Below, one piece after another: positions 138 to 28,838 of a stretch of 28,838 nt of DNA. Each line of letters begins with the position of its first letter. Within the stretch, counting starts at the first letter, position 1. The stretch is from a virus. The stretch covers positions 1 through 28,838 of IMG/VR virus record IMGVR_UViG_3300025132_000210, one strand, 5' to 3'. Under the pieces are notes generated by a model. That model was not told the origin of the DNA and searched no databases. It worked only from the letters and a program-made list of their open reading frames with translations. The position numbers were made by a program, and so were the translations under genes.

Positions 138-139
138 AC

Positions 140-1833: not shown

Positions 1834-1862
1834 TTTATTTAAATTTAATTTTATTAATAAAA

Positions 1863-1893: not shown

Positions 1894-1909
1894 ATTAGTA
1901 ATTTACTTC

Positions 1910-3385: not shown

Positions 3386-3403
3386 AATTTTTAATTTTAA
3401 TTG

Positions 3404-4546
3404 TTAAACTTTTTTAATACTTCTAATTTTAAGTCCTCTTCCACTCGAAGTATCGCCAACCGGTCTAATCTTTAAGCTATTTTTTGTGTTTAATTGAGGG
3501 GCTCTACGAACATCCATATTGATGTTTTTAGATTTTTTTGCTACATCATCCACTGTTGCAGCAACACCTTGCTCATAAAAAAACTTTGCAAACTTTTCAG
3601 GATTCATTGCAACCGACATAGCTTTATGATAAGCCTGCGCATTGTCAATCAACCCATCTTCAGTTAAAAATGATTCAAGCCATTTATTAACATTAGACTG
3701 TTTGTTTTTTAGCTCTTCAGCCGTTCCTGGTTTATAACTAATTTTTTTGTCGTCAGATACGCTAAATTCAAAACCTTTGAAATTATCGTTAAATACTTCT
3801 CCTGTACGCTTTTTAAAATAATCATAAGCCTTAGCTTGGCGCTCCTTTTGAGAGTCTGATTCCTTAATATAATTCTTGTAAGCATTAAGGTCTTTTTCTT
3901 GATCTTCAGATAATCCACCCCCACTTGACTCAAGAGGGATTTTATACTTATCTTTCTGTTCGTTAAAAAATTTCCTCGCTTTTGCAAGTTCTCTTTTTTT
4001 AGCTAATTTCTTCTTCTTAACATCTTTGGGCTCATCTTCTTCTTCATCGAATCCGAATTTGTCATCCATAACGTCTTGAATATCTATAGCATCAAGACCT
4101 TCCTCTTGAATGCTGTAGTAGTCAGCTAAAACAGAATCATCGTCCATAGCACTGTAGTCTTTTTGTAATTTTACAAAATCCTCAATACTACGTCCGGTCT
4201 CTTTTTTATAATCAAAATATAATTTAATATCTTCTGGTAAATCTGGATTTGATTCTTTCGTTTCAAATAATTCATCAACAGAATTTATTTCTTTATTATA
4301 TCTTTCGTTAATATAAGAAAGAACGTGTTCGTCATTTAACTCTGACGAGGGAGTTTTTTCTTCCTGCGGCTCTTCAGCCACAACTTCCGGTGTTTCCGGA
4401 GTATCCTTTTCTGTTTCTACTTGTTCAACCTTTTGAGGTTGCTCTTTCGATTCTTCTTGAGAGTTATGTTTTTCTAATAACTGCTCTTCTATTTCGGCTT
4501 GTGATTTTTGAGTGTTGCCGTCCACTGCTTTTACTTTTATTTCCAT
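3404..4546 (-). CDS. Acidic scaffold-like head assembly protein
   Basis: 380 residues. The first 80 are strongly acidic and Gln/Glu/Pro-rich (EESKEQPQKVEQVETEKD, then PETPEVVAEEPQEEK), probably disordered. Residues about 140-215 hold an acidic patch (DEEEDEPKD) followed by Lys-rich KKKKLAKKRELAKARKF. The C-terminal part is helical and ends basic (GRGLKIRSIKKV). High charge, low complexity, predicted helix and a place immediately before the capsid gene are the usual signs of a phage scaffolding protein, which binds capsid subunits during procapsid assembly and then leaves. No protease motif is seen. A TAATTTTG box lies 16 bases before the ATG, and the start has the recurrent AATTTAATCAAATG leader. 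Confidence 0.65.
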   Translation of the reverse strand: MEIKVKAVDGNTQKSQAEIEEQLLEKHNSQEESKEQPQKVEQVETEKDTPETPEVVAEEPQEEKTPSSELNDEHVLSYINERYNKEINSVDELFETKESNPDLPEDIKLYFDYKKETGRSIEDFVKLQKDYSAMDDDSVLADYYSIQEEGLDAIDIQDVMDDKFGFDEEEDEPKDVKKKKLAKKRELAKARKFFNEQKDKYKIPLESSGGGLSEDQEKDLNAYKNYIKESDSQKERQAKAYDYFKKRTGEVFNDNFKGFEFSVSDDKKISYKPGTAEELKNKQSNVNKWLESFLTEDGLIDNAQAYHKAMSVAMNPEKFAKFFYEQGVAATVDDVAKKSKNINMDVRRAPQLNTKNSLKIRPVGDTSSGRGLKIRSIKKV

Positions 4547-4562
4547 TTGATTAAATTTTATA

Positions 4563-4570
4563 CAAAATTA
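4563..4570 (-). promoter_or_regulatory. Putative -7 box TAATTTTG before scaffold and capsid genes
   Basis: Minus-strand TAATTTTG fits TANNTTTG and lies in the 45-bp gap before the scaffold gene. Together with the terminator at 1863-1893 it would define a short scaffold-capsid transcript. No -33 TTG is seen. Confidence 0.4.
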
Positions 4571-4591
4571 AACATTAATTTATTATTGTTT

Positions 4592-5128
4592 TTAAGCGCT
4601 CTTAAAGTGTTGATATAAAGACTCCCCTAAGCTTTCTCCTACTTTTTTGTCAGATTCATAATGAACTCTGGCGGCTATTCTACTTTGTGAAACGTGTTCT
4701 GCAGTCTGCATAAACTCCTGTCTCATTTCCGGATATAGGTCACTTAAAACCAGTCCTATTAGTTTTGATTGTGTAGAATGTCCTGAAGGAAACGCTGGGG
4801 TTTGTGCGCTTTTCATATAATTATATGAAAGGTTTATGTTAAAATCTTTCGCCACCTCGTTCGGCCTTTTTCGATTGTGGTAATTTTTTAGTTTTAGTAT
4901 TATCGGCCTGGAGTGCTCTAATAAATCGTCAACAAGTTTTTCAGGAAACTTACGTGTTCTGTTTTTAAATAATCTTTCAAACGAACTCTTTACATCATCA
5001 TATTTTTGAGAATAAGAAATGTCTACAGGTTTATTTATAAGCTGCTTTATTTCGTTTAAAGTTTTTAGACTGTGGTCTGGGGGGAACGTAGTTCTTTTAT
5101 ATTTTTCTAAATTAAAATCACTAAACAT
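4592..5128 (-). CDS. PAP2-superfamily phosphatase-like protein in the head module
   Basis: 178 residues. All three signature motifs of the PAP2/class A acid phosphatase superfamily are present with exact spacing: K81-x6-R88-P89 (KNYHNRKRP), S115-G116-H117 (PSGHS), and S149-R150-x5-H156-x3-D160 (SRIAARVHYESD). In this family the second His forms a phosphohistidine and the first His acts as acid/base, so the site looks catalytically complete. There is no signal peptide and no clear membrane helix, so the protein is predicted to be cytosolic or virion-bound; most family members are secreted or membrane proteins. It lies between portal and scaffold genes, which suggests co-expression with head assembly. 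The substrate is unknown; nucleotides, phospholipid or a phosphorylated host compound are all possible. Confidence 0.8.
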   Translation of the reverse strand: MFSDFNLEKYKRTTFPPDHSLKTLNEIKQLINKPVDISYSQKYDDVKSSFERLFKNRTRKFPEKLVDDLLEHSRPIILKLKNYHNRKRPNEVAKDFNINLSYNYMKSAQTPAFPSGHSTQSKLIGLVLSDLYPEMRQEFMQTAEHVSQSRIAARVHYESDKKVGESLGESLYQHFKSA

Positions 5129-5137
5129 TGAGTTTTT

Positions 5138-7573: not shown

Positions 7574-9819
7574 CTATTAATTATTCGACTAACTTTATTG
7601 CTGTTATTATATCTCGCAAAGTTAATGCTTATTTTTGTTTTTTCTTTAGTCGGTGTGTATAAGTGTTTTTGATTAGCCATTATAGCTAAACCTGAACTAA
7701 TTGAAGCATCAAATTTAGTTCTGTTTGATATATCAAACTTGGCCCAATCCTCAAGTGTTCTTTGGTGATACATGTCGCCCATGTCCCCTTGAACCCTATT
7801 TACACCATTCATGTCTAAACCTATATATTTTTCAATATAAGATTCAATAGCAGCCGCATGAGACTGTTTTACATCTTCTGATGTATTAGGTATACCTCCT
7901 ATTTCTTTTTCAGTTTTTGACAACTTATTATATTTTTTATCTGGCCTATTCATACTAAAAGGTCTATACCCTCTGTTTTTCAAATGATACAATAATCTTG
8001 GTTTATTGTTTTCACACAATATAGGCATTCCATAAAAAACACAAGCCATCAAAACTTCTTCAAAAAATATTTCAGCAGTTTGCGGTCGAGCTATATATTC
8101 TAAAAAAAAATGGTTGCTCGGCATGTCCTCCATGGAAAACTTTGTAAGCCCATGCAAAGAGCCGTTAGACCCCCTGCCAACTACCACTCCAGAAATGTCG
8201 TATGAATCGCATCCAAATGATCCCAAGTGTTCGTTTCCTGGATAGTATAATCCGTTTTTTCTAACAACATTATTTTGAAGTCTTAGCTCTGGCATGTAAG
8301 TTACAAAAAATCTACCTCTTTTGTTTGGAGTCCAAACCACTTTACTGTCTTTAATTCCATCCTTCCAACTAAAGGATCCTTGAGTAACAAAATGTTCTTT
8401 TATTAAAGTGTCGTTATAATCAATTTGCTGGTATAATTTTGTTAAATTAAATAAAGACTGCTTACTCTCATCTCTAAATGCGTGTGACTCTGTTCGCGGA
8501 AACTGTCTGTAAAATTCATTTAAAGCGTCTGGGTCAGAAGATAATGACTCAACTTCATTTTTCCAGTAGTTTACCGACCCTTGATATATCTCCTCTGAGT
8601 CTACCCCTAAAACCCCAGTGTCTGGTGTTTCTAAAACAGGCATACCGTATCTATCTATAAAACCTTCCATATTCCACTCCATAGGTATAAATAAGTTATA
8701 TAAACCACTTTTAGTTTGCCCGTTAGCATTTCTTTTAGTGGCATCAGAATCCATAAAAAGTTTTTTAAAATTACTTCCGCCTTTATCTAAAGCGTTAGAC
8801 GTAGACCCCATCATGCACTTACCTATAATTTTACTACCTAAACGTAAACATGTTTTTGTAACCCTCCAGTTGTTTAAAATATTTTCAGGCCTCTCCCATT
8901 TTCCGCTTTCATCATGTATCAGCAACTGTAGCTTTTCTCCGTCATAACTATTATCAGAGGTGTTTTTCCAATCTATAGTAGTATCCAAACCCTCAAGCGT
9001 TTCCTCTTCTATAGTAAACATATTTTTTTTAGTAATTTTTGATGCGGGTACTCTGTAAGCTAATTCAGTTTTAGGTTTATCCATACCGTCTTGTATGGGC
9101 TTGAAAAAGAACGGGTAGTTGTTAGATATAGGAACTATTTTGTCTGTGAACATTTTTTTTGCATCTGATCCTGTTTTAGATAGTATTCCAATTCGTGCAT
9201 TTTTTGTTATAGTGCCTGTATTTACACCCTCACATGAACTCATGAATGAAAAACCTGATCGTCTTATTTTTAAATAACACATACCAAAACTTCTTTTGTC
9301 CGCCTTACAGGCTTCCCAAAAAATATAAAATATTCTATTTGCCTCTCTAAAATCTGGATGCCCTACATCTATTTTTGTCCACTGCAAATACATATAATGA
9401 GTTCCAGTTATGTACACCGGATCGCCGTTATTCATAAACCAATAACCGCTTTCTCTCCTATTAAACTCTTCTTCTATGTAATCTATCCACTGGTTTTTAA
9501 AATCAATAGGCGCTTCATGCCACTGAAATATGGTAGAAATTCTTTTTAATATAGACGGTAGTTCTGCAGCTTCCCAATACTGATCTTTTTTTTTATCGCT
9601 TCTTTTAAATATTTTATCTGGAGCTTTAGGCAGTCCAATCCTAACACCTGAAACATAAATTATATCGCCAACAGTTCCATCTTTAGATATTATGACTACG
9701 TCATACTTTTCGTTATAACCATAGGACCAGCTATGCGCTTTATTTTTACGCTTTAAAACATGTGTAGGAATTATGTCTTTACACTTAAAATAAATATTAT
9801 TTTGATCTTGATTCTGCAA
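7570..9819 (-). CDS. terL: Terminase large subunit (packaging ATPase and nuclease)
   Basis: 749 residues. The ATPase half has a Walker A-like segment K184-I-R-R-S-G-F-S191; it lacks the usual GK[ST] but matches the lambda gpA-type variant, in which an upstream Lys is used (KxxRxGYS). Walker B is LLIHDE with D303-E304, followed by the coupling segment GSTSNA (338-343). The motif RQFPRTESHAF (438-448) is typical of the region linking to the nuclease. The RNase H-like nuclease half shows GCD (D538) and PILCEN (E603) as likely metal-binding acids. The enzyme pumps and cuts concatemeric DNA at the portal, whose gene overlaps by 4 bp. The start overlaps the preceding gene by 23 bp. Confidence 0.9.
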   Translation of the reverse strand: MQNQDQNNIYFKCKDIIPTHVLKRKNKAHSWSYGYNEKYDVVIISKDGTVGDIIYVSGVRIGLPKAPDKIFKRSDKKKDQYWEAAELPSILKRISTIFQWHEAPIDFKNQWIDYIEEEFNRRESGYWFMNNGDPVYITGTHYMYLQWTKIDVGHPDFREANRIFYIFWEACKADKRSFGMCYLKIRRSGFSFMSSCEGVNTGTITKNARIGILSKTGSDAKKMFTDKIVPISNNYPFFFKPIQDGMDKPKTELAYRVPASKITKKNMFTIEEETLEGLDTTIDWKNTSDNSYDGEKLQLLIHDESGKWERPENILNNWRVTKTCLRLGSKIIGKCMMGSTSNALDKGGSNFKKLFMDSDATKRNANGQTKSGLYNLFIPMEWNMEGFIDRYGMPVLETPDTGVLGVDSEEIYQGSVNYWKNEVESLSSDPDALNEFYRQFPRTESHAFRDESKQSLFNLTKLYQQIDYNDTLIKEHFVTQGSFSWKDGIKDSKVVWTPNKRGRFFVTYMPELRLQNNVVRKNGLYYPGNEHLGSFGCDSYDISGVVVGRGSNGSLHGLTKFSMEDMPSNHFFLEYIARPQTAEIFFEEVLMACVFYGMPILCENNKPRLLYHLKNRGYRPFSMNRPDKKYNKLSKTEKEIGGIPNTSEDVKQSHAAAIESYIEKYIGLDMNGVNRVQGDMGDMYHQRTLEDWAKFDISNRTKFDASISSGLAIMANQKHLYTPTKEKTKISINFARYNNSNKVSRIINR

Positions 9820-10069
9820 ATCCTTTAGGTACGTTATTTTTTTTAATTTGATTTCCGTCTAACTTATCCTTCTCTTCCTCAACACGTTTTAATATTTCAA
9901 AAGCGTCAAAAATTGCTAATTTTTTTGTAGCAGCAGCATTTTTTAATCTGTCTGCCGAAACATCATCATCGGTTCCTGTAACAATTTTTTCTTTTGCGAC
10001 ACTAATAAGTTCTTCAACAGCATTTTGTCCTGCCGCTATAATTTTAAGTTTTAATGCTTTACTGTCCAT
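9797..10069 (-). CDS. Small helical protein before terL; possible small terminase
   Basis: 90 residues, mostly helical and charged: KLKIIAAGQNAVEELISVAK, then a second helix DAFEILKRVEEEKDKL and a polar tail. Its position directly before the large terminase, with a 23-bp overlap, and its small size suggest a small terminase subunit or an accessory packaging factor. I see no clear helix-turn-helix, and DNA recognition cannot be shown from the sequence. The gene overlaps the upstream GroES-like gene by 11 bp, so these genes are read as one operon. Confidence 0.65.
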   Translation of the reverse strand: MDSKALKLKIIAAGQNAVEELISVAKEKIVTGTDDDVSADRLKNAAATKKLAIFDAFEILKRVEEEKDKLDGNQIKKNNVPKGFAESRSK

Positions 10070-10631
10070 TTGAAATAGTTATATTATTGGTAAACATACG
10101 GTATAGTTTTTCATTGTCTATTGTAAACATATACTCACTGTTTGGTTGAAAAGAAATTTCGTCCCCCTCTTCAACGCCAAGTTTTTTTAATTCGTCGTTG
10201 GTGTATTTCAAAACACCCCATAAAGGCTCTTCAGTAACTCCGACGCCATCTAAATAAAAATCTTTTTTTGGAATCGGTTTAACAAAACAATATTTACTAT
10301 GACTATACCATTTATTATTTTGCTTATATAGATAGAACTGCTCGGGGTCAACTAAAAATAAATCATCCATCAACCAGCTTCTTCCGCTTTTTTGTCTTCC
10401 ATAAATATCATTATAATATTTGAAAACATTATGATGCACAACAAGTATGTCGCCTTTTTTTATTTTACCGTTATAATTTATTGGGGTTTCGATTACGGTT
10501 GCAAATCTTGTAGAAACCGTATGGTCTTCTTCCGAGGTACTGGTGAAAAATTTATGTTCACCGTAATATTTTATATTGTCATAACGCCTTCCATTGTAAG
10601 GAGTTACGATAAAACAAAAAGGGGATTTCAT
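10059..10631 (-). CDS. Tandem GroES-like beta-barrel protein
   Basis: 190 residues. The C-terminal half (about 114-187) follows the order of a GroES subunit: a first strand YCFVKPI, a loop (121-137), G139-V-L-x-x-x-N-x-x-L, then G152-V-E-E-G-D-E-I-S-F, S-E-Y, I171-D-N-E-K-L-Y-R-M and a last strand. In E. coli GroES the matching stretch is GEVLAVG, VKVGDIVIF, KIDNEEVLIM. The N-terminal half (about 5-103) has a similar outline: FCFIVTP, a long loop (14-42), FATVIETP, IKKGDILVVHH. This suggests two GroES-like barrels in one chain. Neither loop has a clear Ile-Val-Leu GroEL-binding tripeptide. It lies in the packaging operon, some 15 kb from the separate groES gene. It may be a capsid-folding cap (as gp31 is in T4) or a virion protein. 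The fold is inferred, not searched. Confidence 0.6.
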   Translation of the reverse strand: MKSPFCFIVTPYNGRRYDNIKYYGEHKFFTSTSEEDHTVSTRFATVIETPINYNGKIKKGDILVVHHNVFKYYNDIYGRQKSGRSWLMDDLFLVDPEQFYLYKQNNKWYSHSKYCFVKPIPKKDFYLDGVGVTEEPLWGVLKYTNDELKKLGVEEGDEISFQPNSEYMFTIDNEKLYRMFTNNITISNGQ

Positions 10632-10849
10632 TAAAAATTTATATTATATTCTAAAGATATAGGCATGGTAGTTTTAAACTCTTTCCATAAAACTATCTCT
10701 TCTTCCTGTATAATCCAAATCTTATAAGAGTCGCCATCAGCTTGAATTAAATGAATCTTGTAAGATCCGCCTAATACATCCTGCCCTATTATATAGTGCA
10801 TAGCTCCAGACTTATAGTCTGCTCCAATAGAAATTTTTCTTATATCCAT
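10631..10849 (-). CDS. Small conserved protein, function unknown
   Basis: 72 residues beginning MDIRKISIGADYKSGAMHYI, then IGQDVLGGSYKIHLIQ and a closing beta-rich part with WIIQEEEIVLWKEF. The pattern of alternating hydrophobic residues suggests a small all-beta protein. It overlaps the downstream GroES-like gene by one base, and the start carries the recurrent TTTTAATTAAATG leader. I recall that similar small proteins occur near terminase genes of marine phages but know no function. No catalytic motif is visible. Confidence 0.68.
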   Translation of the reverse strand: MDIRKISIGADYKSGAMHYIIGQDVLGGSYKIHLIQADGDSYKIWIIQEEEIVLWKEFKTTMPISLEYNINF

Positions 10850-10853
10850 TTAA

Positions 10854-11393
10854 TTAAAATGTTGAGCCTACTGTTAAGACTCTGTAAAATACATTAGCAT
10901 ATAAAACGCCCGAACCTTGTGTAGGGTTTGCTTGGGCTTCTAAAGTTAATGCTGTGTTTTGCGCTATAATTTCATTGGTGCCAGAAGGAACCTCTGGTTT
11001 AAAAACCGCATCAGTGGCTGAGTTTATAGTTGTGTTGCTGTTTGGAATACTTGCTATTTGCTCACTTCCTATTTTAATAGGTAATGCTCCGGTTCCAAAA
11101 TCATAAGCAACAGAACCTGCGTCTAAATAAAACATTATACTTAAAACATCAAGAACCTTTAAAGCTCCTGGTGCCGGTATTAAAGTTGCTGCTGTTGTGT
11201 TTAGGGTTAATAAAGACGCGCTATTAATAGCAACCTTAGCCACAAATGTATCAATGCCAAACAAACTTTGAATTTGAGAAATAGTTGCAGTTTTTGTCAT
11301 AAGACTATTTTCTGCATCCGTAATAACTAAGTAGTCTGCTGGATCTAAATTTGATATACTTGGATATGCTGATGTGTTGCTAATTTTTGCCAT
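10854..11393 (-). CDS. Fibre-family protein with short N-terminal anchor module
   Basis: 179 residues. The N-terminus (MAKISNTSAYPSISNLDPAD, then YLVITDAENSLMTKTATISQ) is one copy of a module seen several times in the neighbouring 13499-15871 protein: DxLxxxDxxxxxxxKxxTxxxL. The rest is Ala/Thr/Asn-rich beta sequence (from VAKVAINSASLLTLNTTAA to LYANVFYRVLTVGSTF). The start also resembles the 15888-16634 protein (MARISTY, then KWIGSDSQNNFQTKNFTAGD). These features fit a small tail or head fibre component, or an adaptor attached to the larger fibres. The function is inferred from shared modules. Confidence 0.7.
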   Translation of the reverse strand: MAKISNTSAYPSISNLDPADYLVITDAENSLMTKTATISQIQSLFGIDTFVAKVAINSASLLTLNTTAATLIPAPGALKVLDVLSIMFYLDAGSVAYDFGTGALPIKIGSEQIASIPNSNTTINSATDAVFKPEVPSGTNEIIAQNTALTLEAQANPTQGSGVLYANVFYRVLTVGSTF

Positions 11394-11639
11394 TTATTTC
11401 TTTTTTTCTGGAGGTTTAACCTCCCCTGTTCTTAAATCTATTGTCGCGTCTTTTCCGTATGTTTCAATAAGAGAAGATTCCAGTTTACTAAATTCTGCTT
11501 GAACTAAGTCAAGTTCAGCAATAGATTTTGCTTTGTTAATCTCTGCATCTGCTATTTTTACTTTAAGTTGTAAAAACTTTTGATTTAAAGATTGTACGCT
11601 ATCTAACTCTTCTTTTTTTAACTTTATTGTTTTTGCCAT
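11394..11639 (-). CDS. Small coiled-coil protein of the fibre cluster
   Basis: 81 residues, largely one long amphipathic helix: SVQSLNQKFLQLKVKIADAE, then IAELDLVQAEFSKLESSLIE, followed by a short tail ending PPEKKK. A heptad-like pattern supports a coiled coil. The gene abuts the 10854-11393 gene and starts with an AATTAAATTTAATAAAATGG leader. A TATATTTG box lies 31 bases upstream, so this may be the first gene of a transcript leading into the packaging genes. Possible roles are a fibre chaperone or a trimerising factor. Confidence 0.65.
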   Translation of the reverse strand: MAKTIKLKKEELDSVQSLNQKFLQLKVKIADAEINKAKSIAELDLVQAEFSKLESSLIETYGKDATIDLRTGEVKPPEKKK

Positions 11640-11669
11640 TTTATTAAATTTAATTATTATACAATACTA

Positions 11670-11677
11670 CAAATATA
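11670..11677 (-). promoter_or_regulatory. Putative -7 box TATATTTG
   Basis: Minus-strand TATATTTG fits TANNTTTG. It is in the 50-bp gap between two fibre-cluster genes, and it would drive the 11394-11639 gene and those after it. No -33 TTG is seen at the expected spacing. Confidence 0.42.
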
Positions 11678-11689
11678 GTAAAATTTACT

Positions 11690-13486
11690 TTACCCATTAG
11701 AAGTTTTGTTAATGTCTACATTGTTTACAAGACCAGCTTGATAGTTTAATTGAGCATATCTTATTTGTATATACCAAGCCGCAGTTGGCAATGCGGTTAA
11801 GTTAGATGCGGATCTAAGCAGTAAAGCTTTGTTTAGCTGGAAAGTATTTGCGCCCACCTCATTCAATGTTGCGCTACTCCTTGACCAAAACCAAGTTCCG
11901 GTTTGAGTTACAAGAGACCTTGGTAACTTCCACACCGCATCAAAAGCATTTGTAAGACTACAGTTAAGAGAATTTCCTTGGCAAAAACCTATTTCAGCTC
12001 CAAAGTTTGGCGAGCTTGATGGCCAGCCAGTACCAGTTGTTCCAGTGTCTTTATATATAAGAATTTCAAAAGGAAGTATAATGCTGTTTGATCCAGGCGC
12101 TGCTATTAATGTTGTTCCTACACTGGATAAGTCTTTAAAGGCATTACCTGAAACTTTTATTGTAATTATACGTCTTTCTTCAACCACCTTACCAGCGCTT
12201 CCAAACGCTGCAACATATTTAGGTTGGTTAATATTAGTTGATATACCAAAGTAATTACCTTGACCGTAATTACCCATTTTAACATATTTACCGCCCGCAG
12301 AACCATTTCCGTCTACATATAAATTTTGCTCGGTAGTATTACCAACATTTAATTGGTTCCTAACTCGCATTGTTCCATTTACATCAAAAGCAGAGCCAGG
12401 CGTAGAGGTTCTAAATCCTACCTTTCGGTTGGCTGTATCTATATAAAGTGTTTCTTGACTTGAAGCGTCGCTTCCTATTTTAACAAGACTTCCAGTGTCA
12501 GTTATTTCCGAGTCTGTTAGGGCTGAAGAACTGCTCCATTTTGGTAAAGTATTAGCAGTTCCAGTGCCGGTAACTGTTCCATTATTATCTGCTGTAATTG
12601 TAAAGGATGGATAAGTTCCAGTTATACTTATACCGGTGCTTCCCGTTAAAGAAACTGTTAGGTCAGGAGCAGTATTTGTAATTGTTAATTTTGCTCCTGA
12701 AGCTGCAGTACAATCAATACCAGTGCCTCCAATGAAATCAACTGTATCCCCACTTCCTATACCAACAACAGTACCTGATGTATCACCATCTAATTTCCAT
12801 CCAGTATAATCACTTGTTCCTGCACCAATATCACTTCTTACTTGAGCCGCTGTTCTTGTTTTAATTACATTACTGTCGTTTACTAAAAACGATGATGCCG
12901 CAGTGCCTAAAGCACTAAGCGTTGTTAATTTGGTTCCTGAAGAGCTAAAGTTGACTATTTCGCTACCTCCAGCAGAAATTTCTAAATTGTCCGCAGCAGA
13001 ACTAAATATACCAGTATTGGTGTCTTGAGCTCCAGTTCCACTTCTCATTCCAAAATTTAAACCTGGTTTAGATACTACTCCTGGTGTAATTTGAAGAGTT
13101 GATGAATTTGAAGTAGCCGAACCTTCAAATTTTACAGTACCCACCCCGCCATCATTCTGCATTTGTACAGGCGTACTTGTAGTGTTGTTAAAAAAAGTTG
13201 TATTAGTACCGAACACCAGCCTTAGCGTGTCAGTTAAATCAGTAGTTCCGTTCCATATCGCCACCCTGGTTGCAGTACCTGATCCAGTAACTGTTCCACT
13301 TCCAGTTCCCGCGCCAATATCACTTCTAATTTCAGAAGGGGTTCTTGACACTACAATACCGTTTGAGTCAGCAACAAGAATTTTTGCGGGTGTGCTGCCT
13401 AATGCAGCTATATTACCAATAGTAAGGGTCCCACTTAGACTTATATCGTCATCCGTACTTGTGTCTGCCAAGAATTTTATTGCCAT
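11690..13486 (-). CDS. Tail- or head-fibre protein with repeated modules
   Basis: 598 residues, rich in Gly, Ser, Thr and Asn, with beta-repeat character throughout. Two copies of a module are clear: ILVADSNGIVVSRTPSEIRS plus DIGAGT in the first 60 residues, and FLVNDSNVIKTRTAAQVRSD plus IGAGT near residues 200-225. A third relative is in the neighbouring fibre (ILVSTSGLIERRTKAEILSD plus IGAGT). A further pattern, GTATRVAIWNGTTDLTD and GTANTLPKWSSSSALTD, also occurs twice. The N-terminus MAIKFL is shared with the neighbour (MAIRFL) and may attach both to the same virion part. The C-terminal 170 residues are not repeated and may bind the receptor. Recognition of the host surface is the likely role. 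Confidence 0.8.
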   Translation of the reverse strand: MAIKFLADTSTDDDISLSGTLTIGNIAALGSTPAKILVADSNGIVVSRTPSEIRSDIGAGTGSGTVTGSGTATRVAIWNGTTDLTDTLRLVFGTNTTFFNNTTSTPVQMQNDGGVGTVKFEGSATSNSSTLQITPGVVSKPGLNFGMRSGTGAQDTNTGIFSSAADNLEISAGGSEIVNFSSSGTKLTTLSALGTAASSFLVNDSNVIKTRTAAQVRSDIGAGTSDYTGWKLDGDTSGTVVGIGSGDTVDFIGGTGIDCTAASGAKLTITNTAPDLTVSLTGSTGISITGTYPSFTITADNNGTVTGTGTANTLPKWSSSSALTDSEITDTGSLVKIGSDASSQETLYIDTANRKVGFRTSTPGSAFDVNGTMRVRNQLNVGNTTEQNLYVDGNGSAGGKYVKMGNYGQGNYFGISTNINQPKYVAAFGSAGKVVEERRIITIKVSGNAFKDLSSVGTTLIAAPGSNSIILPFEILIYKDTGTTGTGWPSSSPNFGAEIGFCQGNSLNCSLTNAFDAVWKLPRSLVTQTGTWFWSRSSATLNEVGANTFQLNKALLLRSASNLTALPTAAWYIQIRYAQLNYQAGLVNNVDINKTSNG

Positions 13487-17098: not shown

Positions 17099-17605
17099 TT
17101 AGCACCTCCATCTTCTTCGAGCTTGTCTAATTCTCGAGTTAGGATTATTTCTTGTTTTTGCACTTGATCTTTTTAACTGACCCAAGCTTCTTGCGCAATA
17201 AGATTTTCTTCTTGCTGCTCTTTTACCTTTGGGCTTTTTTTCAGTAACCGCAGTTTGTAAATTACCTCCAGTTTTTCTATTGTAAGCAGCCACGCCTTTT
17301 TTAGTCATACCAGCTCCTTTTTTAGTTGGGCGATAATTTGCGCTTTTGCCTTTAGTTGTTTTTCTAATTAGTTTTGGAGAAACTTCTTTTGTGTTTTTTA
17401 CAAATTGCTTTCCTAAAGATCCTTCTCGTTTTTTCTTGCGCGCGGTTTTAGCTAAAGCTCTTTTAGAGAGTCTTTCGGCTTTTGCTCTCGGCAAACAACG
17501 ATCAGGGTTTTTTTTATTTTTAGACGTGCCACATTTGCCCTTGATTTTACCATCAGTGCCAATGCGAACCCAGTCTTGTTTTACCCAGTCTTTTAACTTA
17601 CCCAT
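17099..17605 (-). CDS. Basic Cys-containing protein, conserved in marine viruses
   Basis: 168 residues, very rich in Lys and Arg. The N-terminal part has KLKDWVKQDWVRIGTDGKIK, then GKCGTSKNKKNPDRCLPRAK, a pattern I recall from small domains of marine phages and some large algal viruses (DUF5872-like). The C-terminal part has GMTKKGVAAYNRKTGGNLQT, RRKSYCARS and a closing RRRWRC, which recalls a second domain shared by those viruses (DUF6321-like). Four Cys (in GKCG, DRCLP, YCAR and at the end) are spaced as if they could bind metal or form disulphides. No known activity; a nucleic-acid-binding or virion protein is plausible. The domain names come from memory. Confidence 0.72.
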   Translation of the reverse strand: MGKLKDWVKQDWVRIGTDGKIKGKCGTSKNKKNPDRCLPRAKAERLSKRALAKTARKKKREGSLGKQFVKNTKEVSPKLIRKTTKGKSANYRPTKKGAGMTKKGVAAYNRKTGGNLQTAVTEKKPKGKRAARRKSYCARSLGQLKRSSAKTRNNPNSRIRQARRRWRC

Positions 17606-17936
17606 TTCTTTTTTGTCTTCTTCTTTCTTTTTTCATTTTTCTGTAAGCCTTCATGGCCTCTCTTTTAGCCTTACCCTTTTTCCAAGAGCCAGCCGCAAAT
17701 CTTTCTGCTCTTCTTTTTGACTTAAACTCATAAACCTCACCTGCCGCTAAAGCCTCATTAAAACTTTGAGGTCTTGCCTTTTCTTTACCTTTGAATGTTA
17801 TAGTAGGTGCGGCATAATTTTTTTCATTGTTTTTACCTCCAGTATAATAACCCATTTTAACAGTTTCCTTTCTGCCTGACTTATTTCTTTCAAGGTTTCT
17901 TAAATGCTTTTTTCTTCTTCTTTTTACTGTAGGCAT
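17598..17936 (-). CDS. Small basic protein, function unknown
   Basis: 112 residues with a basic first section (MPTVKRRRKKHLRNLERNKS), a middle with AAPTITFKGKEKARPQSF, then EVYEFKSKRRAERFAAGSWK and a long basic tail (AMKAYRKMKKERRRQKRNG). The AxxFxSKRxAERFAAGSWKKG pattern is one I associate with small phage proteins of unknown role. It overlaps the upstream gene by one base and the downstream gene by 8 bp, so translation is probably coupled. Nucleic-acid binding is likely from charge alone. Confidence 0.7.
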   Translation of the reverse strand: MPTVKRRRKKHLRNLERNKSGRKETVKMGYYTGGKNNEKNYAAPTITFKGKEKARPQSFNEALAAGEVYEFKSKRRAERFAAGSWKKGKAKREAMKAYRKMKKERRRQKRNG

Positions 17937-18421
17937 TATTTCTTTTTACTTTTTTTTGCGTAATTTGGATCTTTACAATATTTACTTGCTGCCATATTTG
18001 CATAAGCACTCGGGTATTTATCAAAAGTTCTTTTAGCCCAGGCTATTCCAGCAGGACATATCTTATTGCTTTTCTTTGGTCTTTTTGTTGACATCTTTGG
18101 TTTTTTACGGCCAATTGTATCCGCCGCCTTTACACTTCCCTTTTTTGCAAGTTGTTTTGAAAGATATTTAACCACTGCCTTTCCTCCTTTAAGCAGAGAG
18201 CCGCCACCTATCATTCCACCTCCAACTATACCCCCTTTTCTGTAATCTTCGGGTCTTATTTTTACATACTTTTTAGACTCAGCTTTTAATTTAGCAGCCT
18301 TGGCCGCCGCTTGTTTTTTTGTTAGCAATTTTTTTCGAGCTTTTTGAGGCGCTCTGGATGCTACAGCTGTAGATGATCTAACTACTTTTCTAACAGGTTT
18401 TTTAATTTTTCTTTTTGCCAT
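17936..18421 (-). CDS. Basic protein with C-terminal YPSAYANMAASKYC motif
   Basis: 161 residues. The first 50 are Lys/Ala/Arg-rich and resemble histone H1-like tails (KKPVRKVVRSSTAVASRAPQ). A Gly-rich stretch (GGIVGGGMIGGGSLLKGG) near the middle may form a membrane-interacting or flexible segment. The C-terminus has KICPAGIAWAKRTFDKYPSA followed by YANMAASKYCKDPNY, a motif I recall in many marine phage proteins, with two Cys that could form a pair. It begins at the base where the endolysin gene ends. The function is unknown. Confidence 0.72.
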   Translation of the reverse strand: MAKRKIKKPVRKVVRSSTAVASRAPQKARKKLLTKKQAAAKAAKLKAESKKYVKIRPEDYRKGGIVGGGMIGGGSLLKGGKAVVKYLSKQLAKKGSVKAADTIGRKKPKMSTKRPKKSNKICPAGIAWAKRTFDKYPSAYANMAASKYCKDPNYAKKSKKK

Positions 18422-18885
18422 TATATAACTTTATATTTAGTTCTACCGCTTTCCTTGTATGCTTTTAAACATCTGTTTCTGTTATCTTCGTCGTTGACAT
18501 AAGAAACATGTATCCAATTAGGATTCATATCTGTTCCAAACTCCCATATTAGTTGATCAAAATTTAAATTCTCTTTAATCCACTGATACATTTCTGCGTT
18601 AGTTTTATGGCCATAGACATCGTCAAGGTCCATTGCCTGTCCCTTCATGTGTTGGCTTGTCTTACTGCTTCCGCCAATAGCTTCATTTAAAGCAGGAGAT
18701 CTGAACATGCTTGTAACCTTTATAGGCCCCCCTACAAATTTACGTAAAGGCTCGAATATTTTTTCAGCCGTTATCTTCATTACTTCTACCTGCGCTGCGC
18801 TCGGCGTATTGTCTATTCCTTTTCTTTTTGCTGTATTAGAGTGTATGGACTCAGCGTATGTTATGTGTTCGGATATTTTTTTCAT
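18421..18885 (-). CDS. M15-family peptidase endolysin
   Basis: 154 residues, a complete peptidase M15A-type domain. Expected zinc and catalytic residues are visible: H79 and D86 in SQHMKGQAMDLD, and H126 in PNWIHVSY, with E115 in QLIWEF as the likely catalytic acid. The preceding FRSPALNEAIGGSSKTSQ is also typical. Such enzymes cut peptide cross-links of peptidoglycan. There is no signal peptide, so release should depend on the holin encoded downstream (16638-17096). The gene overlaps both neighbours by one base. Confidence 0.88.
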   Translation of the reverse strand: MKKISEHITYAESIHSNTAKRKGIDNTPSAAQVEVMKITAEKIFEPLRKFVGGPIKVTSMFRSPALNEAIGGSSKTSQHMKGQAMDLDDVYGHKTNAEMYQWIKENLNFDQLIWEFGTDMNPNWIHVSYVNDEDNRNRCLKAYKESGRTKYKVI

Positions 18886-19226
18886 TATCTTTTTGTTAAT
18901 CGTTTTCCTTTTCTTGTCATTCTTTTTCTAAAACGTTCTGCTCGAGCTTTACTTATTTCTTTTTCAGTACATGCCTTTTTTTTATTTGCAGGACACTTCA
19001 TCATGTAGAACTTACCATTCTTCTTTTTTATAGTACCCTTAAAACTTTCTTTAGAAGCGCCTCTTTTGTTGGTTTTTAATTTTAAATAACTTGTGCCGCT
19101 ACCATCTTTGTTGATGTCGACAGTTTTGCTTTTAAACTTTTCAGAAGCCTTTCCTTTTTTAGCTTTTAGTTTTACTGTATTTTTTGCATAAAGCTGAGAT
19201 GCTGGTATTGTTTTTTTATTTTTCAT
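18885..19226 (-). CDS. Small basic protein with two or more Cys
   Basis: 113 residues, Lys-rich. The order is a basic N-terminus (YAKNTVKLKAKKGKASEKF), a beta-like segment GSGTSYLKLKTNKRG, then KNGKFYMMKCPANKKKACTE and a strongly basic C-terminal helix (AERFRKRMTRKGKRLTKR). The C-x7-C pair could bind a metal ion or be redox-active. Its start overlaps the end of the beta-barrel gene by 4 bp (ATGA type), so the two are translated together. The function is not known. Confidence 0.7.
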   Translation of the reverse strand: MKNKKTIPASQLYAKNTVKLKAKKGKASEKFKSKTVDINKDGSGTSYLKLKTNKRGASKESFKGTIKKKNGKFYMMKCPANKKKACTEKEISKARAERFRKRMTRKGKRLTKR

Positions 19227-22143: not shown

Positions 22144-22461
22144 TTAAATAGGAAGCTTTATTCCTTGAGCTCCTGCAACAGATCTCCCAAAATTAAGAGT
22201 ATCTCCTACTACCTTTGCTGGGTTTAAATGTTCTAAAAACTTTGGGTTTTTAGTTTTTTTTAAACTCATTTTAGGTTTTTTCATTTTGCATCCAAAGTTG
22301 TTTGCGTAATTTGCCATCTCTACAACATTTTTAGAGTATTTGTTTTTGCTCTTCATAACTGCAGAAGCGGCGCTACAAGCGTCTTTGAAGCCGTTCTTTT
22401 TCGCCCAAGCTGTAAACTTTCCTTGGTTTTTCTTTTTTATTTTTGGAAACGGCTTTTTCAT
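22144..22461 (-). CDS. Small basic protein with KKP motifs
   Basis: 105 residues. After MKKPFPKIKKKNQ comes a compact segment KFTAWAKKNGFKDACSAASA, VMKSKNKYSKNVVEMANYAN, NFGC, a pattern I recall as widespread in marine phage proteins. A KKPKMSLKK motif (61-69) follows, then a helical tail with HLNPAKVVGDTLNFGRSVAG. The two Cys (29 and 58) may pair. KKP(K/M)M motifs also occur in the 23063-23620 and 24018-25004 proteins. It overlaps the upstream gene by one base. Nucleic-acid or virion binding is inferred from charge. Confidence 0.72.
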   Translation of the reverse strand: MKKPFPKIKKKNQGKFTAWAKKNGFKDACSAASAVMKSKNKYSKNVVEMANYANNFGCKMKKPKMSLKKTKNPKFLEHLNPAKVVGDTLNFGRSVAGAQGIKLPI

Positions 22462-22673
22462 TATTTTCTAATAAGTCCGCCAATATGTCCTTTTACGCTC
22501 GATGGGTATCCTTTTTCGTAGCCCATAGAGTGATCTCCTCCATAAGAGTGACCATACATTTTCTTAGACATAGCCTTAGATTCGTCTCTACGATCTTTTA
22601 AGGATTGCTTATGCTTTCCTTTGTGCTTGTTTCCTAAAGACTCATCAAGTCTCGCGTTATAACCTTGTTTCAT
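22461..22673 (-). CDS. Small polar basic protein, function unknown
   Basis: 70 residues, polar and mostly disordered in appearance: MKQGYNARLDESLGNKHKGK, HKQSLKDRRDESKAMSKKMY and a Gly/Tyr-rich end. The MKQGYNxRLDESLG start and the RRDESK box are features I recall from small proteins of other marine phages. A TATATTTG box lies 22 bases upstream, so this gene may head a transcript of the small-protein group. No domain is seen. Confidence 0.68.
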   Translation of the reverse strand: MKQGYNARLDESLGNKHKGKHKQSLKDRRDESKAMSKKMYGHSYGGDHSMGYEKGYPSSVKGHIGGLIRK

Positions 22674-22694
22674 AATAATAAGTTTTTAATAATA

Positions 22695-22702
22695 CAAATA
22701 TA
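22695..22702 (-). promoter_or_regulatory. Putative -7 box TATATTTG
   Basis: Minus-strand TATATTTG fits TANNTTTG and lies in the 44-bp gap before the 22461-22673 gene. No -33 TTG is found at the usual spacing. Confidence 0.42.
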
Positions 22703-22717
22703 ATAATATTTTAAATG

Positions 22718-23062
22718 TTAGTGGTGAGCGTCTTCCTCCCAAGGCAAATCTCTATCGTGTGTATTGATTTGGCTATTAGGTATAACTTCAATTTGGCTAA
22801 AAGGATCTGGTTTGTAATAATAATTATTATGATCAAACCTAAGCATCCCGCTTTTCATTTGACGCAAATGATCAAGCTCATGTTTTACTGCTTTTCTTTT
22901 TAGTGCAGGAGACATGTTTTTCTCAATCTCAATTACGCCATTTGGATTTATTGTGCCAAGAGTATGTTTACCAAGATCTGTTTCAACTACCTTATAATCT
23001 CCTGTTGAATACTCTTTACTAAACCCAAATACTTCGTGTATGTTTTTTAATTTAAAAGACAT
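22718..23062 (-). CDS. Small HExxH metallopeptidase-like protein
   Basis: 114 residues. A zincin motif H61-E-L-D-H65 lies in a helix after KRKAVK, with QMKSGMLRFDHNNYYY behind it, and a PWEEDAHH end whose Glu (109 or 110) could be the third metal ligand. The first half is beta-rich with GTINPNGVIEIEK. I recall phage proteins with the same order (KHExxHxxQMKxGxLxYD, then LPWExxA). No signal peptide is seen, so it would act in the cytosol or be packaged. Possible tasks are processing of a virion protein or cleavage of a host protein. The gene ends one base from the 23063 gene start region and shares its transcript. Confidence 0.72.
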   Translation of the reverse strand: MSFKLKNIHEVFGFSKEYSTGDYKVVETDLGKHTLGTINPNGVIEIEKNMSPALKRKAVKHELDHLRQMKSGMLRFDHNNYYYKPDPFSQIEVIPNSQINTHDRDLPWEEDAHH

Positions 23063-23620
23063 TTATTTTTTTAATCGCTTTCCGACTGGGTCTTTTGGCG
23101 CTTTTGTTCCTCCTTTTTTCATTTGTCTTTTAACTGCCTTTAAAACAAGTGCTTTGCCTTTTTTATCTGCAGCCTCAGACTGAGCTCTTTTCTTTTTTGC
23201 TTTAGTAAACTTTCTATTAGCAGCTTTTAACTTTCTTTCAGCAGCTTTTGTTTTACCTGCTTTTCTTAAAGCAGCAGCCTTGTTGCCTTTTACAGCATCA
23301 CCTTTGAAACCTTTTCTATCTGAAGCTTTCATTTTTCTTACGCTTTTCTTTGCAGCTCTTACTATTTTACCAGCCTCTTTTTTAGTAGCGCCAATTTCAT
23401 TCATTACCATTTTTTTAGCCTTAGCCTTTTTTGTAAGCATAGGCTTTTTCATAGCCATCATAGGCTTTTTCATGGCCATCTTAGGCTTCTTCTTTTTTAG
23501 AATTTTAGTCTGCACCTCTTTTGGTAAAGAGTCAAACCCAGCGTTTAGCTTGGGTTTTTTAGAGTTCATTGCCATAGACATTCTTGCTTTCTGTATGGCG
23601 TTTAACTTTGGTAGTTTCAT
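23063..23620 (-). CDS. Lys/Ala-rich histone-like protein with KKPM repeats
   Basis: 185 residues, extremely basic. Residues 43-62 hold repeats (KKPKMAMKKPMMAMKKPML), encoded by two 21-base direct repeats at 23439-23480. The second half is Lys/Ala-rich helical sequence (VRAAKKSVRKMKASDRKGFK, AALRKAGKTKAAERKLKAAN) resembling eukaryotic-type histone H1 tails or bacterial H1-like proteins. Similar KPMM motifs occur in the 24018-25004 protein. Such composition suggests DNA or RNA condensation, inside the capsid or on host DNA. No globular domain is recognised. It follows the metallopeptidase-like gene directly on the left. Confidence 0.72.
   Translation of the reverse strand: MKLPKLNAIQKARMSMAMNSKKPKLNAGFDSLPKEVQTKILKKKKPKMAMKKPMMAMKKPMLTKKAKAKKMVMNEIGATKKEAGKIVRAAKKSVRKMKASDRKGFKGDAVKGNKAAALRKAGKTKAAERKLKAANRKFTKAKKKRAQSEAADKKGKALVLKAVKRQMKKGGTKAPKDPVGKRLKK
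23439..23480. repeat. Two 21-bp direct repeats inside a basic-protein gene
   Basis: 23439-23459 and 23460-23480 are adjacent copies that differ at one position (ATAGGCTTTTTCATRGCCATC on the plus strand). They encode the seven-residue unit MAMKKPM. A diverged partial copy follows. The repeat is in frame and explains the KKPM array by tandem duplication. Confidence 0.8.
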
Positions 23621-23640
23621 TGTTTTATTAATTTATGTGT

Positions 23641-23781
23641 TTATCTTCCTTGCCCTCGGTAAATTTTACCCGAGTAGTATTTTCCATTTACATTATTAGT
23701 GTGCCTATTCTTGCTGTGAATATTAGGTCTCTTAGCATGAACAGATTTTTTATAAGTAGAGGTTAATCCTTTTCTTGCCAT
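23641..23781 (-). CDS. Short basic protein with HSKNxHTNN motif
   Basis: 46 residues: MARKGLTSTYKKSVHAKRPN, IHSKNRHTNNVNGKYYSGKI, then YRGQGR. ATG is at 23781 and TAA at 23643-23641. It overlaps the upstream stop as TAATG. The pattern SVHxKxPNIHSKNxHTNNVxGKxYxxxYRGQGR looks conserved and I recall close relatives in marine viruses, so the frame is very likely real. It has four His and many Lys/Arg; no function is known. Confidence 0.72.
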   Translation of the reverse strand: MARKGLTSTYKKSVHAKRPNIHSKNRHTNNVNGKYYSGKIYRGQGR

Positions 23782-24014
23782 TATCTTCTTCTTCTTCTTC
23801 TTGGTTTGTTAACCGCACATCCAGTAACTCTTCCTCTTTTATCTCTTATTTTTCTTGAACCTCTGCCGCAAGTAATTCCTCTGGCTTTGCTTCTAAGCTT
23901 TCTTGCTTTGTCTGATTTTCTTTCAGCTCTTTTGAACTTACCTTTGCTTCTTAGCTCGGCAGCTCTATCACTTTTTTTATCGGCTCTTCTCATAAGCCTT
24001 TCATATCTTGGCAT
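23781..24014 (-). CDS. Arg/Lys-rich protein with two Cys
   Basis: 77 residues. Residues 1-45 form a charged helix with repeated RxxRADKKSDRAAELRSKGK type units (two similar SD(R/K)A(A/R)xLRSK segments). The C-terminal part ITCGRGSRKIRDKRGRVTGC, then AVNKPRRRRRR, has two Cys and a polyarginine end, as in protamine-like or nucleic-acid-binding tails. It lies four bases from the 24018-25004 stop and overlaps the next small gene by one base. Confidence 0.7.
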   Translation of the reverse strand: MPRYERLMRRADKKSDRAAELRSKGKFKRAERKSDKARKLRSKARGITCGRGSRKIRDKRGRVTGCAVNKPRRRRRR

Positions 24015-24017
24015 AAT

Positions 24018-25004
24018 TTATCTTTTATATGGTTTATAATTGTTATAAGGATCGCCACTTTGACGGCCTATTCTTTTTGGTGAACCTTGTTTTTTAGCAA
24101 CTTTATTAATTTTTCTTACTTTTCTATTTATTGCTCTATCCTTTCTTCCTTCAGACTTATAAAGTTTATTTATTTTGCGTATAGTTTTTTTATCTTTAGA
24201 CGACAGAGAACTTGGATCACCTTTTACTTTGCTGTAATAATCTTTTCTTCCAAGCTTATCATATAGCCCTCTTGCAAGTTTGTCTCTTTCAGCTTGCATT
24301 TTACGCAGCTTTACTCCTTTTCTTTGAGCAGCCGCAGCTTTTCTTGCGCTTTTTCTGTCAAGCCTTGACAATTTAGATGTTTTCTTTTTTCCAGACAACA
24401 TAGGTTTTATTACACCCGTCATCATAGGTTTCTTCATAGAAGACATCATGGGTTTTTTCATAGCCATTTTAGGTTTTATTGAAGCGCTTACTTTAGCCTC
24501 ACCTTTCTTTCTAACCTTTTGAAGTATAGCTTTTCTTTTTTTCAACCCCTCTTTGCGTTTTTTGCTCAGCGGTTTATCAAAAGATCCACCAGCTTTTTTC
24601 TTTGCTGTTGTAAGCATTGGTTTTTTTGTTCCTACCATTTTTACCTTTTTTTCTTTTTTAGGATAAGATCTTTTTGCGGTCACGGCTTTTGCAGTGTCAG
24701 CTAAACCTTTAGCGGCTTTATCAAACTTTCCTTTTTTTATTGCACTATAAGTAGATGATGCAGCTGTAACTATCTTGCCAAGCTTGCTGCCTTTTATTTT
24801 ATCTACTTTCTTTTTAATTTTATCCGCAGTATTTTTAACTTTTTGAATCGTTCTTCCTGCGCCGGTTTTGCCGGTTTTTACAATTTTGGACTGTCTTTTC
24901 GCAAGCCTTGTAGCTCTTTTGGTATTACCCTTGATATTAGCTTTGTTGATTTTTCTACTAAGTTTATCTTTTCTGCGAGCCGCAGCTTTTGTCATTGTGG
25001 CCAT
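24018..25004 (-). CDS. Long Lys-rich histone-like protein with KPM repeats
   Basis: 328 residues, the largest basic protein here. Residues 1-120 are Lys/Ala/Ser/Thr-rich with a helical outline (KIVKTGKTGAGRTIQKVKNT). Residues 128-131 and 177-203 hold KPM motifs (KPKMAMKKPMMSSMKKPMM, then IKPML) like those of the 23063-23620 protein. The C-terminal 110 residues are a different basic helical part (ERDKLARGLYDKLGRKDYYS) ending RQSGDPYNNYKPYKR. It is the first gene of the accessory block and is divergent from the plus-strand regulator-like gene; a TATCTTTG box lies 26 bases upstream. DNA-binding is inferred from composition only. Confidence 0.72.
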   Translation of the reverse strand: MATMTKAAARRKDKLSRKINKANIKGNTKRATRLAKRQSKIVKTGKTGAGRTIQKVKNTADKIKKKVDKIKGSKLGKIVTAASSTYSAIKKGKFDKAAKGLADTAKAVTAKRSYPKKEKKVKMVGTKKPMLTTAKKKAGGSFDKPLSKKRKEGLKKRKAILQKVRKKGEAKVSASIKPKMAMKKPMMSSMKKPMMTGVIKPMLSGKKKTSKLSRLDRKSARKAAAAQRKGVKLRKMQAERDKLARGLYDKLGRKDYYSKVKGDPSSLSSKDKKTIRKINKLYKSEGRKDRAINRKVRKINKVAKKQGSPKRIGRQSGDPYNNYKPYKR

Positions 25005-27855: not shown

Positions 27856-28080
27856 TTAAAACTCTAATTGGTTAAAGTTCTTTTTGTCCTCAGCAAGTTG
27901 TATTGCTTCAGCTATTTGGTTAATCTTACGATCGTTCTTTATAGACCTTTTAATAGACGCTGCTCTTGCTATTCCGCTTTGTCCATCAGGCCTGTCGTTT
28001 ATTAATCTTCCGTTTCTAACGTAGAGTCCGTCTACATAGTTGTTAGTGCTTGGATCTTTATATAGTTGCTTGTATCCCAT
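27856..28080 (-). CDS. Small hypothetical protein, first minus-strand gene
   Basis: 74 residues: MGYKQLYKDPSTNNYVDGLY, VRNGRLINDRPDGQSGIARA, then a helix ASIKRSIKNDRKINQIAEAI and a polar end. The first half has beta-hairpin character, the second is a charged helix. It is transcribed alone: a TATCTTTG box is 17 bases upstream and a terminator follows. As the first gene beside the control region it could be an early or regulatory product, but no known domain is recognised. Confidence 0.7.
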   Translation of the reverse strand: MGYKQLYKDPSTNNYVDGLYVRNGRLINDRPDGQSGIARAASIKRSIKNDRKINQIAEAIQLAEDKKNFNQLEF

Positions 28081-28096: not shown

Positions 28097-28104
28097 CAAA
28101 GATA
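28097..28104 (-). promoter_or_regulatory. -7 box TATCTTTG before the 27856-28080 gene
   Basis: Exact minus-strand TATCTTTG, 17 bases upstream of the ATG at 28080. No -33 TTG is seen. The box is identical to those at 130-137, 1059-1066 and 25030-25037. Confidence 0.52.
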
Positions 28105-28254
28105 ATAAATTTTTTTAGATACTCAGGGGTTGAGGATAATACTACGCTATACGTTTGCTACCCCCTAAAAAAAAAGTCAATATTTCTGGCGAGAAGTCGA
28201 ATCAAAATAAAATTTTTGCTGTACTTTTTTGGGTTTTTCCTGAGGCAGTCCGAC

Positions 28255-28291
28255 CACACACGTACACGCACACGCACACGCACACACGCGT
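28255..28291. repeat. 37-bp alternating purine/pyrimidine tract with ACACGC repeats
   Basis: From 28255 to 28291 pyrimidine and purine alternate without a break. It includes three perfect tandem ACACGC units (28264-28281) and then ACACACGCG. Long CA/CG alternation is the classic setting for left-handed Z-DNA under negative supercoiling. It is out of keeping with the AT-rich genome. Confidence 0.85.
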
Positions 28292-28320
28292 TCGTTTGTC
28301 GTTTCGTTTGGGGGTATCGT

Positions 28321-28358
28321 TCCCCCTTCCCCCGTTGCCCGTGTCCCCCTTCCCCCGT
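28321..28358. repeat. C5-tract direct repeat, G-quadruplex/i-motif candidate
   Basis: Two perfect copies of TCCCCCTTCCCCCGT (28321-28335 and 28344-28358) with TGCCCGTG between. C runs lie at 28322-28326, 28329-28333, 28338-28340, 28345-28349 and 28352-28356, so the minus strand carries five G runs with loops of two to four bases, enough for a G-quadruplex. GGGGG at 28310-28314 could instead pair with the first C run. Confidence 0.85.
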
Positions 28359-28413
28359 ATTTTTATTTAAAAGATACTTAACGCCTTGCGTTTATAACTG
28401 CACGACCTCAACA

Positions 28414-28433: not shown

Positions 28434-28523
28434 AAAATTAAAAAAAAATTCATTTCATAAGTCATTGACTATCAGCCAACTAAAAGAAAACTTTTGATGT
28501 AAGTAAATATTTTTTAAAAAAAG

Positions 28524-28556
28524 TTTGTTTTATTAAATAGTTTTGCTTTATATTTG
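28524..28556 (+). promoter_or_regulatory. Full Bacteroidota-type promoter for the rightward gene
   Basis: TTTG (28524-28527), 21 bases, TATATTTG (28549-28556): both elements match the Bacteroidota consensus for the main sigma factor. The ATG follows 35 bases later. Unlike most leftward boxes here, it has a clear -33 element, which suits an early promoter read by unmodified host polymerase. Confidence 0.7.
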
Positions 28557-28591
28557 CACTAACAATAAACATTTTATAAATTATTTTTACT

Positions 28592-28838
28592 ATGATAGCA
28601 ACAATTAAAAACGAATTATTATCTCATATTGAAGATTATAACAACGAAGATAAAAATCATTACACAATGTTCAACGAAGATTATTATATAATCGGATATT
28701 GTAAGGCAGATAATTGGCTAACAAAGCACGGTTTAAACGTGTTTGAGGCAATAAGAATTTGCAACGACTACGAACAGGAGCATTTCGGAGAGATACAAAC
28801 CACTTTCGACAATGCCGAAAAATTAGTAAATCATCTTG
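28592..28838 (+). CDS. Start of a rightward early gene, cut by the window edge
   Basis: 82 complete codons from ATG at 28592 to the end of the window, open throughout: MIATIKNELLSHIEDYNNED, KNHYTMFNEDYYIIGYCKAD, NWLTKHGLNVFEAIRICNDY, EQEHFGEIQTTFDNAEKLVN, HL. The product is acidic and rich in Asn, Glu and aromatic residues, with a likely alpha/beta fold. The pattern FNEDYYIIGYxxAxxWLxxH, EHFGExQTxFxNAEKLVN is one I recall from small early proteins of Bacteroidota phages, of unknown function. A good promoter lies upstream. Its direction is opposite to almost all other genes, which suggests the early region starts here. Confidence 0.8.
   Translation, partial: MIATIKNELLSHIEDYNNEDKNHYTMFNEDYYIIGYCKADNWLTKHGLNVFEAIRICNDYEQEHFGEIQTTFDNAEKLVNHL

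Follow-up and report, generated by a model that had tools for sequence, protein, structure and literature searches.

What does an exceptionally GC-rich, repetitive tract do in a gene-free gap between oppositely transcribed phage genes? The question arose from a linear 28,838-bp IMG/VR contig (the window, meaning the whole stretch of DNA analysed), in which a first-pass annotation took an alternating purine/pyrimidine run and a C-rich direct repeat at 28255-28358 to suggest a supercoiling-sensitive switch, a replication origin or a packaging site. Our comparison with related phages supported the packaging site, but neither the switch nor the origin. Very probably, the tract belongs to a packaging terminus like that of phage T7, namely a short direct terminal repeat on a linear podovirus genome about 60.5 kb long. 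No literature on this element was found.

Tracts, genes and promoters of the divergent gap

The tracts noted earlier were confirmed. Positions 28255-28291 form an uninterrupted purine/pyrimidine alternation of 37 bp, as compared to 11 bp for the longest other run in the window and to a mean of 13.8 and a maximum of 23 for the longest run in first-order Markov sequences (n=200). The perfect 15-bp repeat TCCCCCTTCCCCCGT occurs exactly two times, at 28321 and 28344. The cluster of G runs on the minus strand is present and is the sole G4-type motif of the window, but it consists of four G5 runs and one G3 run rather than five G5 runs; a plus-strand G5 is also present at 28310. The 60-bp segment at 28301 has the highest GC content of any in the contig (0.63 vs 0.352 overall), and the gap indeed separates opposed gene directions, with a minus-strand gene at 27856-28080 and a plus-strand ORF from 28592. 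Dozens of independent contigs, as well as the complete genome of Caudoviricetes sp. ctfjg026 (MW202828), carry similar tracts in the corresponding position, and the tract is thus not an assembly artefact of one contig, a possibility that had been raised.

The window phage encodes a terminase (phrog_6681), a portal protein (phrog_6547) and GroEL/GroES, and is a podovirus of a Bacteroidota-phage group. Among annotated genomes, MW202828 comes closest (71% in terminase), with elemo, Calle/phi38:1, phi13:2-type phages, Gundel and Maribacter phage Panino at a greater distance. One contig, G038 (IMGVR 3300017773_000028; 1-43767 compared), shares the window's terminase at 100% and overlaps both window ends, the right one over 28532-28838 and the left one, as calculated by offset, over about 1-11801; combined, the two contigs give a genome of about 60.5 kb. 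The 307-bp overlap between the right end of the window and the start of G038 (28532) was rejected as a terminal repeat, since it lies outside the repeat defined by two full-length relatives (G027 and G028, see below), and was ascribed to contig chance. The late block of the window contains runs of small, very Lys/Arg-rich proteins (17099-19226 and 22144-25004) with a strong AT skew. Another contig, G036 (the L167 contig, 105,284 bp), carries two different terminases 60.8 kb apart, with 85% and 83% identity to that of the window; two related genomes are joined in it, as a chimera or mosaic.

The features of the gap and its flanks are as follows.

27856-28080, minus strand: 74-aa gene, first of the leftward (late, GroEL side) block (ORF list and relatives)
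28097-28122, minus strand: putative leftward late promoter with -7 box TATCTTTG (CAAAGATA on the plus strand, 28097-28104) (alignment and consensus of relatives)
28116-28122: conserved TTAGATA upstream of the late -7 box (alignment and consensus of relatives)
28127-28157: conserved GGTTGAGG(G/A)TTATA..TATACG block spanning the left boundary predicted for the terminal repeat (alignment)
28140-28358: predicted direct terminal repeat, about 219 bp (alignment to the G027 and G028 repeats and the G040 end)
28173-28239: conserved T/G-rich core (AAAGTCA ... TTTTTTGGGTTTTT), kept more widely than any other part (nhmmer)
28240-28358: GC-rich, A-poor, low-complexity segment, its place and composition kept, its sequence differing per phage
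28255-28291: 37-bp alternating purine/pyrimidine run of CACACG type, the window phage's version of the GC-rich segment
28310-28326: hairpin-forming inverted repeat GGGGG-TATCGTT-CCCCC adjoining the right-end motif (sequence)
28321-28335, plus strand: first TCCCCCTTCCCCCGT copy, with right-end motif CCTTCCCYCGTT (motif analysis)
28344-28358, plus strand: second TCCCCCTTCCCCCGT copy, predicted right end of the terminal repeat (motif and the G027 and G040 ends)
28380-28405: hairpin AACGC-CTT-GCGTT and conserved TTATAnCnnCACGA motif, just past the repeat (alignments of relatives)
28458-28482: imperfect, operator-like dyad TAAGTCATTGA-CTA-TCAGCCAACTA, in many relatives (alignments, by eye)
28524-28556, plus strand: putative early promoter of Bacteroidota type, TTTG - 21 nt - TATATTTG (sequence; same arrangement in relatives)
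28592-28838, plus strand: first rightward (early) ORF, truncated by the contig end (ORF list)

Relatives of the 74-aa gene were found in viral contigs only, and none in the bacterial genomes searched. The putative late promoter lies just outside the predicted terminal repeat, on its left. Within 28097-28141 (minus strand) it has an ordinary Bacteroidota -7 box, a conserved ATATCTAA replacing the -33 TTTG and a GGTTGAGGGTTATA block upstream; the replacement of TTTG and the additional block suggest a phage-encoded activator of the late promoter. The operator-like dyad upstream of the early promoter follows the pattern TAASTYRNTGAnnnTCANYRASTTA in many relatives.

The shared element and the probable genome ends of related phages

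Loci of relatives were retrieved via GroEL, the 74-aa gene and the right-hand ORF. They share one gap architecture, in which a conserved left element is followed by GC-rich low-complexity DNA, a C-rich motif and a hairpin, and then by an AT-rich stretch, the dyad and a Bacteroidota-type promoter. An nhmmer profile of the left element matched 107 loci (81 non-redundant). The refined core profile also matched elemoA (2e-7), MW202828 (3.5e-6), Calle (1.7e-5) and phi38:1 (7.6e-5), with a marginal match in phi13:2 (0.043), and Baltivirus/Bacelvirus relatives retain AGATTTTTGACTTTTTGCA. In every isolate found, the core is located in the late/early gap in one orientation to both blocks. Some small annotated CDSs on the core or tract, or elsewhere in the divergent gap, are probably spurious: L187:13897-14296 (MW202828 42896-43295), L196:23013-23126 (phi13:2 gp058) and L192:19215-20068 (elemoA gp58-61).

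Tabulating where contigs end with respect to the core singled out two full-length genomes, closely related in their late regions, that each begin and end inside the element: G027 (60,405 bp) and G028 (62,950 bp). In both contig sequences the same sequence stands in direct orientation at both ends, as a terminal repeat of 183 bp in G027 (start/end identity 98.4%) and of 171 bp in G028 (95.9%), comprising core, tract and hairpin. Apart from the outermost differences, the G027 copies differ only in the length of homopolymers, which is what two copies read independently should show. The G027 repeat ends in ...GGAAGAGGTGTTCACACCTTCCCTT and the contig in ...CACCTTCCCTT. A different species from a third sample, G040, ends in ...CACCTTCCCGTT at the G027 end motif, the common ending being CACCTTCCC(T/G)TT. 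Broken terminase frames were observed in these three records only, out of 50; judging from their frameshifts only, they are probably long-read-type contigs. All three end in the repeat, as compared to 2 of the 47 others (Fisher p 5e-4, post hoc).

The Tenacibaculum phage Gundel provides a further case, with a 322-bp terminal repeat predicted by PhageTerm and described as "not experimentally verified" (PMC8776804). This predicted repeat occupies the corresponding divergent gap, and its start lies 17 bp ahead of the core sequence AGATTTTTCGTTTTGGCA, which is found at base 18 of the Gundel record and, within the genome parts searched, only in the two repeat copies. The right ends of G027, G028 and G040 agree within about 30 bp in the contig sequences, and Gundel agrees with them, whereas short-read contigs end at many places. 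Short-read contig ends do pile up at the element, which is suggestive, but low-complexity DNA breaks assemblies anyway.

End overlaps in G004 (369 bp at 95%) and G039 (148 bp) were rejected as terminal repeats and attributed to circular assembly. Strain variants in circular assemblies also yield imperfect end overlaps that mimic terminal repeats, and the weight of the argument is therefore carried by the coincidence of several contig ends at one homologous site. Headful (pac) packaging yields terminally redundant, circularly permuted genomes without fixed ends. The coinciding ends of the three contigs and Gundel would argue against such a mechanism.

By alignment, G027 and G028 have their left ends at positions equivalent to about 28140-28152 of the window. 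The window phage's own direct terminal repeat is thus a prediction from its relatives, with ends at about 28140-28358; taking the first CCCCCTTCCCCCGT copy as its end would shorten it to about 197 bp. Given the ends of G027, G028 and G040 together with Gundel, the tract at 28255-28358 is most likely the inner and right part of this repeat. Two observations count against the terminal-repeat reading. The window contig continues through the element into early genes, which would be expected, however, if two repeat copies collapse in assembly, and the right-end motif is recognisable in just 28 of 62 relatives.

Composition and sequence of the GC-rich segment

Conservation of the tracts in close relatives had been proposed as a check. 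The exact tracts are not kept; their place and composition are. In 64 relatives, GC content rises from 0.29 to 0.61 directly after the core and A falls to approximately 0.15, over about 120 bp, before the background level returns. A segment within the top 2% of local GC lies inside the tract in 64 of 79 loci, and one within the lowest 2% of complexity in 36 of 79, and some relatives' tracts contain A-free stretches of 100-139 nt. The repeat units differ by phage, with CACACG in the window and GTTTAAAC, GGCTC, CCTGT, GGTTCCCTT, CCCGCTACAGC and GGTTGG elsewhere. The CCTTCCCY-type motif follows the tract in the above-mentioned 28 relatives (vs 0.5% of background windows), and a hairpin of at least 6 bp precedes this right-end motif in 12 of these 28 (3.0 expected).

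We rejected the idea that the tract evolves faster than its surroundings. Divergence among relatives was not above that of the AT-rich flank on its right: both are near random at core identity below 0.8, and equal in close pairs. In elemo alone the tract site is the one variable spot. Thus, "hypervariable" fits only the contrast with the core, and elemo.

One tentative explanation, which we hold to be possible but doubtful, is that the segment is a cassette in the terminal repeat, selected for composition (GC-rich, A-poor on the early-reading strand, low complexity) and free in sequence. Slippage or hairpin-primed repair at each packaging duplication might renew it, giving lineage-specific "telomere-like" ends with a composition-set function such as end protection, terminase stalling or strand opening.

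Alternative readings and the proposed T7-type terminus

The element has a putative promoter on either side, TATCTTTG reading leftward and TTTG-n21-TATATTTG reading rightward, and conserved blocks adjoin the late promoter. It might therefore be read as regulatory DNA, a hub that serves the divergent late and early promoters through activator sites, bending A/T tracts or a topological insulator, rather than as a genome end. RNAalifold found no consensus fold on either strand among the relatives, and there was no Rfam match, which suggests that the element acts as DNA; the folding of single tracts was close to that of shuffled sequence. However, a hub leaves unexplained why terminal repeats or contig ends occur at this exact place in G027, G028, G040 and Gundel, and the core, whose conservation reaches deepest, is set apart from the promoters and is kept where the promoter block is not. 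We therefore regard a hub in place of a genome end as unlikely, although the promoter hub on both flanks is real and the two roles can coexist. A promoter for an N4/crAss-type virion RNA polymerase was rejected, the DxDGD motif being absent from the giant proteins of MW202828, elemo and Calle. The giant late proteins of MW202828 (741-12320, 3859 aa) and elemoA (gp21, 3694 aa) have no PHROG match; the giant proteins of MW202828 and elemo gave no profile match, and that of MW202828 no PDB sequence match.

A bidirectional replication origin, with the T-rich core as unwinding element beside the GC-rich block, would suit the position between divergent blocks and the T-rich/GC-rich arrangement with its dyad, and relatives encode DnaA-like or initiator proteins. 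The strand-skew check suggested earlier nevertheless gave no support in MW202828 or the window. In MW202828, third-position GC skew shows no reversal at the gap, one strand being G-rich throughout (+0.2 to +0.3 for the late coding strand, about -0.1 for the early one), and in the window it is inconsistent. No iteron is conserved across relatives, and we judge an origin highly improbable. The idea that is hardest to credit is a supercoiling-sensitive Z-DNA/G-quadruplex switch. The window phage does combine the 37-bp alternating run with a G4-type motif, and MW202828 and L051 likewise have long CG/CA or GT alternations, but in other phages their place is taken by GGTTCCCTT, GGCTC, CCTGT or GTTTAAAC repeats. 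An alternating run reaches or exceeds 20 bp in the tract of only 2 of 62 relatives (median 8), and a G4-type motif (four G3+ runs) is present in only 16 of 62, so neither is a kept property.

The packaging site, by comparison, is supported by long-read-type genomes of relatives that begin or end in the element and by the predicted Gundel repeat that starts beside the core. As a terminal repeat, the same approximately 200 bp would occur twice, preceding the early genes on the left and following the late genes on the right. Its left part would be marked by the T/G-rich core, a candidate terminase recognition or cut region, and its right end by the CCTTCCC(C/T)CGTT motif, often behind a hairpin. 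The linear left end would then consist of the repeat, the early promoter and the early genes, and the right end of late genes reading inward from the promoter just left of the repeat. Terminases of T7-type phages are known to cut concatemers. By analogy, replication most likely produces head-to-tail concatemers that the terminase would cut at the element, with the repeat copied at cutting, so that every virion genome would carry it at both ends, as in T7. Each lineage would fill the approximately 120 bp between core and motif with its own GC-rich, A-poor, low-complexity sequence, a composition-constrained spacer whose repeats probably arise by slippage.

Escherichia phage T7 (NC_001604) has a comparable layout: its linear podovirus genome is bounded on either side by a short direct terminal repeat, with early promoters just inside the left end. 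Its repeat of 160 bp holds a G5/C5 hairpin (CCCCC-ATA-GGGGG), comparable to GGGGG-TATCGTT-CCCCC in the window, and bases 1-355 contain 14 C(C/A)TAAAG copies, low-complexity short repeats; the likeness noted is one of layout. The short-repeat arrays of T7 are mostly outside its repeat, whereas the low-complexity segment in the window's group is inside the repeat, with a sequence that changes between related phages. Gundel_1 (Pachyviridae) has a related terminase and portal, the repeat in the same divergent gap, a T-rich core at the repeat start and a hairpin near the right end. It differs in its longer repeat and in an A-poor, G/T-rich stretch just after the repeat (about 360-530) that is not GC-rich. 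MW202828, Cellulophaga Calle/phi38:1 (Pervagoviridae), elemo and Baltivirus share core, place and orientation, and MW202828 has a tract of about 270 bp of ACGCG/CACAC at the element; these are, however, circular or partial records without annotated ends, and elemo has a variable spot at the tract's place but no GC-rich island.

The finding raises the question of why composition, yet not sequence, is kept inside a terminal repeat. On the terminal-repeat reading, a puzzling tract would become a physical landmark of genome ends, and these genomes would resemble that of T7 in loading early promoters on the left and late promoters on the right. The signature of core, GC-rich island and CCTTCCCYCGTT may then predict linear genome ends without read data, and it would apply to a large group of mostly uncultured Bacteroidota phages.
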